The translations under genes were made by a program, and so were the position numbers. DNA of 64,000 bases from Blastopirellula sp. J2-11 (lineage in GTDB: Bacteria > Planctomycetota > Planctomycetia > Pirellulales > Pirellulaceae), in NCBI RefSeq assembly GCF_024584705.1, contig NZ_CP097384.1:1736001-1800000 (forward strand), given 5' to 3'. A model generated the notes under the pieces. The model was not told the origin of the DNA. It was given only the letters and a program-made list of their open reading frames with translations, and made no database searches. Below, piece after piece: positions 12,695-18,231 of the stretch; positions within the stretch are counted from its first letter, which is position 1, and each line of letters opens with the position of its first letter.

Positions 12695-14044
12695 ATGGCT
12701 TCTATTCAAGTGCGCGCCAAGGGGTGCTACCTAATCCAATTCTACGATCGCGACAATAAACGCCGAGGCGTTTCAGTCAGCAAGACGACGATCAAAGCGG
12801 CAAGGACGATTGCCGGTCACATCGAGCATCTAAACGCGTCTGCTAAATCAGGAACAGCCGTACCAGACGCTACGTCGGCTTGGGTAAAGTCGCTGGGAAC
12901 GGCGATGACGCGCAAACTGGTAGCCGTGGGGCTGATCGCCAGCCGGCGCGTCTATAAGCTGGAAGAGTTTTTAGACGAATACTTCAAGAGCCGTACCGAC
13001 TGGGAAGACCGCACGCGTCGCAAGAACGAGTCGAGCAAGAACTATCTGGTCAAGTTCTTTGGCAAAGAGAAGATGCTGGCGGCGATCTCGCCCGGCGATG
13101 CGGACGACTTCCATCGGCATATCGCCCATAAGGTCAAAGGCATCAAGTCGCTGGCGACGATCGATAAGCACATCACTTGCGCTAGGTTGTACTTCAATGC
13201 GGCGCTACGCAAGCGGCTGATTGACGAAAATCCCTTCGCCAACGTGAAGACTATCGCCAATGTCGGCGAAGTCGCCTATCTAACGGCCGAAGACTCTCAG
13301 AAAGTGCTCGAGGCGTGCCCTTCGCTTCAGTGGCGGCTGATTTTCGCCTTTGCACGCTGGGGCGGTCTGCGGATTCCTAGCGAGCTCAACGGGCTAACGT
13401 GGGATGACATCTTGTGGGACCAGAACAAGATTTTGATTCGATCGCCGAAGACGAAACGCTTTCAGGGAAAGGCCGAGCGGCATATCCCAATCTTCGCCGA
13501 GTTACGGCCGCTGCTGCTAGAGGCGCAAGAACAGGCGCCCGATGGCGCCAAGTACGTCATCACAGCGAACCGGAAGGGAAAAACGCTGAATGACGCGTAT
13601 TTGCGGAAGCGGATGGGAATCATCATTGGCCGGTCTGGCGTGTTGCCGTGGCCGAAGTTGTTCCAGTCGCTACGCTCGACGCGTCAGACCGAATTGGAAT
13701 CGCAATACCGAACGCACATCGTGTGCGCGTGGTTGGGCAACAGTCCGAAGATCGCCCACAAACATTATCTGAAAGTTCGCCAAGAAGATTTTGACGTCGC
13801 GTCTGGCGAAGCAGAAGCAGCGCCGGCGGCAGCGGGTTCAGATGGCGCCGCGGAAAAACTGATGCCGTATCTGATGCTGCAAGTTGCGGAATTGTTGGAA
13901 ATATCGGAGCAGGGCGATTTAGGGGGAATGTCGGAACGTGAAGTAAGGCAACGACTTACTTCGATATGCTCTGATATTGCTGAAAACAAAGTAGCCGAGG
14001 CGGGGATCGAACCCGCACGGAGGTTACCCTCCACAGGATTTTAA
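12695..14044 (+). CDS. Tyrosine recombinase / integrase
   Basis: A phage-type site-specific recombinase, 449 residues. An N-terminal arm-binding-like region (1-60) and a SAM-like core-binding domain (about 88-185) precede the catalytic domain. That domain has R226 (GGLRIPSEL), a likely catalytic K252, R327 (SLRSTR) and the nucleophile Y358 (HKHYLKV). The histidines normally before the second Arg and after LG are replaced by Q324 and N349, a pattern I associate with planctomycete integrases. GGAG lies 10 bases before the ATG. The last codons lie inside the tRNA-Leu gene, so the C-terminal tail is a translated attachment site and would change on excision. Confidence 0.9.
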   Translation: MASIQVRAKGCYLIQFYDRDNKRRGVSVSKTTIKAARTIAGHIEHLNASAKSGTAVPDATSAWVKSLGTAMTRKLVAVGLIASRRVYKLEEFLDEYFKSRTDWEDRTRRKNESSKNYLVKFFGKEKMLAAISPGDADDFHRHIAHKVKGIKSLATIDKHITCARLYFNAALRKRLIDENPFANVKTIANVGEVAYLTAEDSQKVLEACPSLQWRLIFAFARWGGLRIPSELNGLTWDDILWDQNKILIRSPKTKRFQGKAERHIPIFAELRPLLLEAQEQAPDGAKYVITANRKGKTLNDAYLRKRMGIIIGRSGVLPWPKLFQSLRSTRQTELESQYRTHIVCAWLGNSPKIAHKHYLKVRQEDFDVASGEAEAAPAAAGSDGAAEKLMPYLMLQVAELLEISEQGDLGGMSEREVRQRLTSICSDIAENKVAEAGIEPARRLPSTGF

Positions 14045-14077
14045 GTCCTGTGCGTCTGCCAATTTCGCCACTCGGCC
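13992..14077 (-). tRNA. tRNA-Leu (UAA anticodon)
   Basis: Read on the minus strand, an 86-base cloverleaf: acceptor strand GGCCGAG pairs with CTCGGCT (one G-U pair), and the D-arm contains the Leu-typical GGCGAAATTGGCAGACGC. The anticodon loop CTTAAAA gives UAA, a long variable arm (TGGAGGGTAACCTCC region) marks a class II tRNA, and the T-loop is GTTCGATCC. CCA is not encoded. Its 3' 53 bases overlap the end of the integrase gene, the expected attachment-site arrangement. Confidence 0.95.
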
Positions 14078-15305: not shown

Positions 15306-16850
<1,545 letters not shown>

Positions 16851-17004
16851 GGTATCTCAAGTAAACCTGACGAAGGTGGATATTCAACAATGTATCGAAT
16901 CGACGGGCCGGCCGGGCGCCGGCGCGGCTAGCAGCAGGCGGCCGCGACTCGCGAAGTTCGATGCGTCAGGGAGAAAATGGGAAGTCATTTGCGGTAAATC
17001 CAAT

Positions 17005-17043
17005 AAAAAAACCCCAGGGCCAATTCGGGGGGCCTTGGGGTTT
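17005..17043 (-). terminator. Intrinsic terminator in the leuA leader
   Basis: On the minus strand, AAACCCCAAGGCC pairs with GGCCCTGGGGTTT with one mismatch around a short C-rich loop, followed by seven T. No gene ends just upstream of it on this strand except the leader peptide, so it serves leuA attenuation. It is segment 3:4 of the attenuator. Confidence 0.9.
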
Positions 17044-17071
17044 CCAGCTAAACGTTTGATGCAAGCGCTGT

Positions 17072-17137
17072 CTACGCTGTCCCCTGCGGCCGATGACCGG
17101 TTAGTAGTAGCAGGGGTAATAGCGAAATGCAGGGCAT
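17072..17137 (-). CDS. leuL: leu leader peptide (21 residues)
   Basis: The ORF runs ATG to TAG. Codons 6 to 12 read CTA TTA CCC CTG CTA CTA CTA, that is six leucines and one proline. Most are CTA/TTA, which look rare in this GC-rich genome. The stop lies 29 bases before the terminator stem. No Shine-Dalgarno sequence is evident before the ATG, which is common in this window. The peptide is expected to act only by sensing leucyl-tRNA during its translation. The gene symbol is by analogy with the enterobacterial leader. Confidence 0.85.
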   Translation of the reverse strand: MPCISLLPLLLLTGHRPQGTA

Positions 17138-17408
17138 CGTTTTTGTTCGGTTAGTTTTGGGCTACAAAAGTAGTCAAGCTTCTGTAGGGACTTTAACTGC
17201 GCCAGAAGGTTCAGTCAACCGGCAATTGGCGATTCCCGCGACCGAAAGAGGGGCTTCATCGAACTTTAAGACAATCGCAGCGCAGGGGCCAAGGACAATT
17301 TTGGGGGGCGGTTGGCTGTTTGGGGGCCAAATCAACCTAGGATTACGGGCCGGGAGAGCGGTAGAATTCGCGCTGCGGTAGGAGAAAACGAGGAGGAGGA
17401 GTCTCGCT

Positions 17409-17745: not shown

Positions 17746-18231
17746 ATGATGGATTTTGATGTTCAGCGGTGCACGCGCCGTTGTGCGGCAACCGATCGAG
17801 AACTTTCGCCAGGCGAGACCTTTTATTCGGTCTTGGTCCGCGATGGCGCCGAAGTGGTGCGCCAAGACTACTCAGTCGAAGCCTGGCAAGGAGCGCCGGA
17901 AGGAGCCGTCGGCTGGTGGAAGTCGGAATTGCCGTCAGGCAAATCACGCGGTCCCGATTGGGCGCCGAGCGACGTAATGCTCGACTACTTTGAAAGTTTG
18001 GCCGAAGACCCGACCAAAGAAGATGTGCGCTACGTGATGGCGCTGCTGATGATTCGCCGCAAGATCTTGCGCCTGGAAGATGCGAGCGGAGAAGGGGAGG
18101 GGCCGGAGATGCTGGTCGTCTTTAGCGCGAAACGCGAGACGCAGTATGAAGTGCCGGTTGCAAACCCAGGTGCGGCGCGGATCGCCGAAATTCAAATCGA
18201 AATTGCTCAACTACTCGAATCGGCGGCGTAA
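17746..18231 (+). CDS. Conserved hypothetical protein
   Basis: A soluble, acidic 161-residue protein of a planctomycete-type family that I recognise only by its style. An early CxxxC (C9, C13) precedes RELSPGETFYSVL, then W-rich segments (GWWKSELPSG) and a helical region with RYVMALLMIRRKILRL. There is no signal peptide or membrane segment. Function is unknown. Two adjacent ATG codons could each start it; neither has a clear Shine-Dalgarno. It ends 18 bases before the lipoprotein-like gene on the same strand, so the two probably form an operon. Confidence 0.75.
   Translation: MMDFDVQRCTRRCAATDRELSPGETFYSVLVRDGAEVVRQDYSVEAWQGAPEGAVGWWKSELPSGKSRGPDWAPSDVMLDYFESLAEDPTKEDVRYVMALLMIRRKILRLEDASGEGEGPEMLVVFSAKRETQYEVPVANPGAARIAEIQIEIAQLLESAA

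Follow-up and report, generated by a model that had tools for sequence, protein, structure and literature searches.

The closest working comparison for the locus described here is the leu attenuator of enterobacteria, in which alternative RNA pairings and an intrinsic terminator are found with leuA downstream. In S. typhimurium this attenuator uses CUA codons, and the available part of PMC1183508 reports that CUG in their place leads to a lower sensitivity. Attenuators have been suggested to have arisen in gammaproteobacteria (PMC3766115, in its available part). For Planctomycetes, leader genes near structural genes have been counted and tied to reinitiation (PMC4833913). The original prediction knew of no described planctomycete example of a leucine attenuator, and none is found among the literature matches listed; possible earlier sources are Lopatovskaya et al. 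2010 and 'Rhodopirellula-1', a candidate RNA that, in the available main text of PMC2864571, appears as a table row without the genes it precedes.

We propose, with a probability of about 0.93, that the leader preceding leuA in Blastopirellula sp. J2-11 is a leucine-specific ribosome-mediated transcription attenuator. At the level of sequence, this proposal draws on the parts of the device, their class-wide conservation, the covariation of three pairings, codon specificity and the placement of promoter-like sites; the switch in vivo and its response to leucine would be the predicted behaviour.

Organization and folding of the leuA leader

The window, i.e. the whole stretch of 64,000 nucleotides that was analysed, belongs to a genome of one contig (6.43 Mb) in which leuA is located far from leuC. 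The features of the locus are the following:

17190-17218, minus strand: promoter-like site TTGACT-17-TAAAGT (pattern scan, 1 site vs 0.4 in shuffles)
17137-17072, minus strand: leader ORF of 21 codons, peptide MPCISLLPLLLLTGHRPQGTA (direct reading; ATG at 17137, stop TAG at 17074-17072)
17102-17122, minus strand: regulatory Leu codons 6, 7 and 9-12, CTA TTA [CCC] CTG CTA CTA CTA (direct reading)
17110-17116, minus strand: segment 1, CCCCTGC, inside the Leu codons, pairing with 17087-17081
17081-17091, minus strand: segment 2, GGCCGCAGGGG (comparison of loci and swap tests, see below)
17031-17042, minus strand: segment 3, AACCCCAAGGCC, 5' arm of the terminator (2:3 and 3:4 swap tests, 63 loci)
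17005-17021, minus strand: segment 4, GGCCCTGGGG, with seven T; terminator 3' arm and U-tract (direct reading; hairpin -15.7 kcal/mol)
15306-16850, minus strand: leuA, 2-isopropylmalate synthase (TIGR00973 leuA_bact equivalog, 722.9 bits vs a cut-off of 598.7)

The promoter-like site at 17218-17190 is conserved in four congeners, differing at one or two positions, and transcription would start near 17183. Direct reading confirmed the predicted 21-codon leader with six Leu codons among codons 6-12, as well as the terminator with seven T at 17042-17005, whose arms (17042-17031 and 17021-17012) are followed by the T run at 17011-17005. As in a classical attenuator, the leader ORF, the translation of which is predicted, carries codons for the pathway product, and an intrinsic terminator separates it from the structural gene. 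The distance to leuA is 221 nt from the leader stop and 154 nt from the seven T. We did not observe a clear Shine-Dalgarno sequence before the leader ATG in the window species (AACAAAAACGATG). A generic terminator scan did not list the leader hairpin (0 found); it requires a loop of 3-8 bases, and the loop here has 9 bases and the hairpin contains a mismatch.

Two further observations concern the surroundings of the leader. A GC-rich stretch, CTGCTGCTAGCCGCGCCGGCGCCCGGCCGGC (16907-16937, minus strand), lies between the terminator and leuA; it is almost identical in four congeners and is also partly found in a few other genera. Elsewhere in the window, a 449-codon ORF (12695-14077), by eye resembling a site-specific recombinase, has its end within a tRNA-Leu(TAA) gene of the opposite strand, an arrangement such as is seen after integration at a tRNA.

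The mutually exclusive 1:2, 2:3 and 3:4 pairings originally proposed do exist, as judged from folds and from swap tests on 63 of 67 leaders, with segment 1 (17116-17110) inside the regulatory Leu codons, as had been claimed. The 1:2 pairing joins 17116-17110 with 17087-17081 (7 bp), the 2:3 pairing joins GGCC/GGGG of 17091-17081 with CCCC/GGCC of 17040-17031, and the 3:4 pairing is the terminator. The placement of segment 2 before the leader stop was confirmed for the window species and one congener only. In two other congeners, where segment 2 reads GGCCGTAGGGG, and in many relatives, where it reads GGCCNTAGGGG and segment 3 reads CCCCRAGGCC, the stop codon lies inside segment 2. Overall, the stop-codon position falls within the 2:3 duplex in 45/63 loci. 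The leader stop is TAG in 47, TGA in 8 and TAA in 6 of these 63 loci; the remaining two, from the window species and one congener, have CAG at this place and the ORF stops 12 nt (four codons) later. In several Planctomycetaceae both strands of the 2:3 pair are changed, to GGTCTTAGG and CCTGAGACC.

Partial transcripts were folded on the assumption that a ribosome masks 15 nt, counted from the first base of its A-site codon. With the ribosome on Leu codon 6, 7, 9, 10 or 11, the 2:3 pairing is the minimum-energy fold of the partial transcript until segment 4 is made; the probability of GGGG:CCCC is 0.59 where computed for ribosomes on Leu codons, and 0.30 at codon 12. When no ribosome is present, the partial transcript adopts 1:2 (P 0.75) and not 2:3, and with the ribosome at the stop codon the terminator alone remains. 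Since the terminator wins in the complete transcript at equilibrium in every modelled ribosome state, antitermination must be kinetic and set by the order of synthesis. Folded by itself, the leader exceeds its shuffles by a modest margin (z -2.0, 4/200); the weight lies with the comparative evidence.

Conservation, covariation and codon choice

For Pirellulales, leuA upstream regions were obtained from 57/60 genomes, giving 58 loci (one genome gave two; G019, G020 and G036 had no usable leuA start). Our strict rule required a hairpin with at least 5 T and, with its end 10-130 nt upstream of that hairpin, an ORF in which a stretch of 8 codons holds 4 or more Leu. By this rule a Leu-rich leader precedes 49 of the 58 loci, vs 3.75 in dinucleotide shuffles, so that the Leu codons are indeed kept in relatives, as the original prediction would have it. 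A hairpin with at least 5 T lies upstream of 52/58 loci, and leaders rich in other amino acids were found at no more than 4 loci each. Among the nine failures of the strict rule, L010 and L027 have a weak candidate and reading of L024, L046, L047, L051, L054, L055 and L058 gave no leader candidate.

The strict T-run rule missed leaders with a broken U-tract, scoring only 6/20 loci in family f75 and 11/20 in family f76. With a relaxed terminator rule, devised after these misses in Gemmataceae and f75 were known, 111/132 leuA loci of the class Planctomycetia have a Leu-rich leader and a hairpin, vs about 12 from shuffles. By group, the counts were:

Pirellulales: 48/59, shuffles 6.2
Planctomycetaceae (f21): 25/26, shuffles 3.1
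f75: 16/20, shuffles 1.0
Gemmataceae (f76): 16/20, shuffles 1.8
f77: 2/2, shuffles 0.1
f78: 1/1, shuffles 0.0
f79: 3/4, shuffles 0.0

The class search found leuA in 145/148 genomes, from which 60 places were taken. Under the relaxed rule some hairpins stand at an odd distance (e.g. L346, L363, L368, L373), and individual assignments in f75 and f76 should be read as approximate. The family names derive from LeuA N-termini: f76 was called Gemmataceae with two Gemmataceae and one Limnoglobus as closest sequences (means 86-91% vs 80-88% for other families), and f21 was called Planctomycetaceae with Thalassoglobus closest. In the other classes of the phylum, the relaxed rule scored 1/13 leuA loci vs 0.6 expected, a sample drawn from 51 matching genomes (the phylum search matched 68/156). 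Among named records, 23/42 Planctomycetota loci scored vs 2.85 by shuffles, and the 2/38 loci outside the phylum are at chance level (1.80 by shuffles).

Some individual loci deserve mention. In the Gemmataceae loci L370, L379, L383 and L385, about 20 nt separate the end of the leuA hairpin from the gene, and the U-tract of the hairpin is broken; these hairpins may act on translation or be weak terminators. A broken duplicate lies at G002:C2:1922853-1923338, where a second leuA-like fragment contains an internal stop and shows 93% identity over residues 148-309. L047 (G040:C241:18200-19000) shows two equal-scoring leuA copies, divergent across a long palindrome, which is probably an assembly artefact.

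Covariation of the stems was assessed by a swap test, in which the pairing energy within a locus was compared with that of arms exchanged between loci (5000 permutations). The test used 63/67 leaders, 60 of them distinct, leaving out L101 (same genome as L056), L031 (wrong terminator chosen), and L010 and L120 (weak leaders). Own arms beat swapped arms for each pairing, with 0/5000 permutations in all three cases, in a test that does not fully remove effects of relatedness: -18.2 vs -12.2 kcal/mol for 3:4, -12.7 vs -11.0 for 2:3 and -19.1 vs -16.6 for 1:2 (63 leaders). The stems thus covary as the original reading demanded. By locus, the own partner was better than the median swap in 62/63 cases for 3:4, 51/63 for 1:2 and 42/63 for 2:3, the 2:3 effect being modest per locus. 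Four control windows gave 3949, 4423, 1220 and 241 of 5000, the last (offset +30) being a weak effect. A position table of 2:3, anchored on the stop codon and thus roughly aligned, has several standard pair types at most positions.

In the window, CTA accounts for 4/6 leader Leu codons; across 23 long ORFs its share is 5.0% (1288 Leu codons). In a set of 30 Pirellulales loci, it makes up 32.2% of 171 leader Leu codons, and its share in the corresponding leuA genes is 2.6% (1101 Leu codons). CTT is the most frequent Leu codon in the leaders of f75 (35%) and of Gemmataceae (44%).

Promoter-like sites were searched with a pattern of our own design (TTGAC-like, spacing 16-18, TAnnnT), fixed after the site in the window was known; with it, 39/47 Pirellulales loci have a site within 140 nt before the leader, vs 1/44 windows further upstream. 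The same scan found no such site between terminator and leuA in 44 Pirellulales loci (mean length 206 nt).

Control genes and a second leader at cimA

At other amino acid genes, the strict rule found no Leu-rich leader before a terminator in 24 ilvB, 26 hisG and 24 trpE loci, controls that are limited since terminators were present in just 10, 4 and 8 of them, respectively. Under the relaxed rule, with terminators in 12, 14 and 15 loci, Leu-rich leaders were scored at 1/24 ilvB, 0/26 hisG and 0/24 trpE. Nor did we observe cognate leaders at these loci, namely His-rich ORFs before hisG, Trp pairs before trpE or Ile/Val-rich ORFs before a terminator in the 24 ilvB loci. The strict test gave an Ile-rich ORF at one hisG locus and two-Trp ORFs at three ilvB loci, which we take as chance. 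At leuC and ilvD, an upstream terminator was found in 2/24 loci each.

A single further LeuA homologue was found in the genome (G000:C1:4819265-4820830), namely the citramalate synthase cimA (TIGR00977, 658.8 bits, cut-off 450). It is preceded by the leader MPNTLINVGSQKGPITIVRIVVPGRCGLG and then by a terminator (L002, G000:C1:4817765-4822330), the leader extending from 212 to 122 nt before cimA. In a sample of 41 cimA loci, all from Pirellulales, an Ile/Val-rich leader (at least 5 Ile or Val in 8 codons) was present at 22 loci vs 0.5 in shuffles, and at none of the 58 leuA loci; 19/41 cimA loci fall below this threshold. At least 4 Ile were found in the leader of 17/41 loci vs 0.1 by shuffles, and the Leu-rich score was reached at 5/41 vs 1.55. 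In the swap test, which used 32/33 leaders (L098 was left out), own 2:3 arms again beat swapped ones (-14.1 vs -12.2 kcal/mol, 0/5000 permutations, 32 loci); the controls gave 1512/5000 and 194/5000, the latter, from a downstream window, being a weak effect. Promoter-like sites precede 24/33 cimA leaders.

These findings suggest that the cimA leader is an isoleucine/valine-type attenuator with an architecture like that of the leuA device, and cimA looks like a new target of attenuation. The match between leader codons and pathway product in two paralogues, Leu at leuA and Ile/Val at cimA, is our strongest single argument for ribosome-mediated sensing.

Proposed mechanism, alternatives and known systems

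In our model, transcription would begin near 17183 and a ribosome would translate the leader. With ample charged tRNA-Leu, the ribosome would reach the stop codon and cover segment 2, so that 3:4 pairs and RNA polymerase stops near 17005. With scarce charged tRNA-Leu, above all the CUA-reading tRNA, the ribosome would stall on the Leu codons and cover segment 1; 2:3 would then pair before segment 4 is made, and leuA would be transcribed. If no ribosome is present, 1:2 would form and termination would be the default.

Other explanations have to be weighed against this model. The hairpin could be the ordinary terminator of an upstream gene or of a stray transcript, with the leuA promoter downstream of it and the Leu-rich ORF accidental. 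Leu-rich short ORFs do occur by chance (3.75 expected in 58 loci); however, the next gene-like ORF upstream (17746-18231; a gene by appearance only) is on the other strand, the interval between terminator and gene has promoter-like sites in 0/44 Pirellulales loci, and leader and stems are conserved and covary. We regard this explanation as very improbable. We think just as little of the possibility that the leader acts on translation or reinitiation rather than on transcription termination. The Gemmataceae hairpins that end about 20 nt before the leuA start with a broken U-tract speak in its favour, as does a peak at 10-11 bp in the distance from leader genes to the structural genes that follow them, Planctomycetes included, for which reinitiation has been proposed as the cause (PMC4833913). 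In the window, however, 221 nt lie between the leader stop and leuA, and a hairpin with seven T ends 154 nt before the gene.

Finally, a riboswitch, a T-box or a protein-binding element might operate here, the ORF being incidental, as other phyla use leaders of this kind to regulate amino acid genes (T-boxes; the LEU element, in the available part of PMC1262725). Against this, the codon content tracks the pathway product at both leuA and cimA, the leaders are enriched in the rare codon CTA, and the leader has no Rfam match: at gathering score nothing but a tRNA was found in the window, and up to E 5 the leader region gave two chance-level matches only, neither the leu leader RF00512, nor the T-box RF00230, nor a riboswitch. 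This option seems to us the most far-fetched of all. Considering the conserved Leu codons and stems, the covariation of the stems, and the promoter-like sites found upstream of the leader but not between terminator and gene, the genomic comparison supports the ribosome-mediated attenuation put forward in the original prediction.

The attenuation mechanism is textbook knowledge but has been tied to a small number of phyla, and the device described here is widespread in the class Planctomycetia. Since an attenuator works only with a ribosome translating the nascent RNA, the device implies transcription-translation coupling, Gemmataceae included. For the same reason it bears on a disputed matter: a spatial separation of transcription and translation has been reported in Gemmata (PMC6212462 and PMC5394234, which in their available parts cite Gottshall et al. 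2014), and the available part of PMC6554331 is a dissenting commentary. The leader device also offers a simple way to test such a separation in planctomycetes. On balance, we favour the view that ribosome-mediated attenuators at both branch-point enzymes of branched-chain synthesis (leuA for Leu, cimA for Ile/Val) go back far in planctomycetes, and that the leuA device extends through the whole class Planctomycetia and has been kept in Gemmataceae. Their selected upkeep would then be genomic evidence of ribosomes close behind RNA polymerase, and would contradict the view of amino acid attenuators as essentially a gammaproteobacterial invention.

Of the precedents named in the original prediction, the gammaproteobacterial one stands, with the enterobacterial leu attenuator as the nearest working comparison. 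Like the leu attenuator of Salmonella and E. coli, the planctomycete device has a leader peptide with Leu codons including CUA (PMC1183508, in its available part), and Pirellulales leaders favour this same rare codon. Unlike the enterobacterial leu leader RF00512, the planctomycete leader has no Rfam match and leuA is far from leuC here; also unlike it, the stop codon lies inside the antiterminator strand in many planctomycetes (45/63 duplexes span it). The actinobacterial precedent at leuA does not hold in the same way: according to the available part of PMC1262725, the LEU element forms a conserved pseudoknot, and its authors held classical attenuation to be improbable there, whereas here we find a covarying pair of terminator and antiterminator.

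The sister device at citramalate synthase, with its Ile/Val codons and terminator, resembles the ilv-type attenuators, i.e. the Ile/Val/Leu leaders before ilvB in Actinobacteria (PMC1262725 and PMC10272879, in their available parts). It differs from them in its target, and 0/24 ilvB loci of our set have an Ile/Val-rich leader before a terminator. In a phylum without a described case among the literature matches listed, the mechanism would thus be classical, and what is unusual is its breadth.
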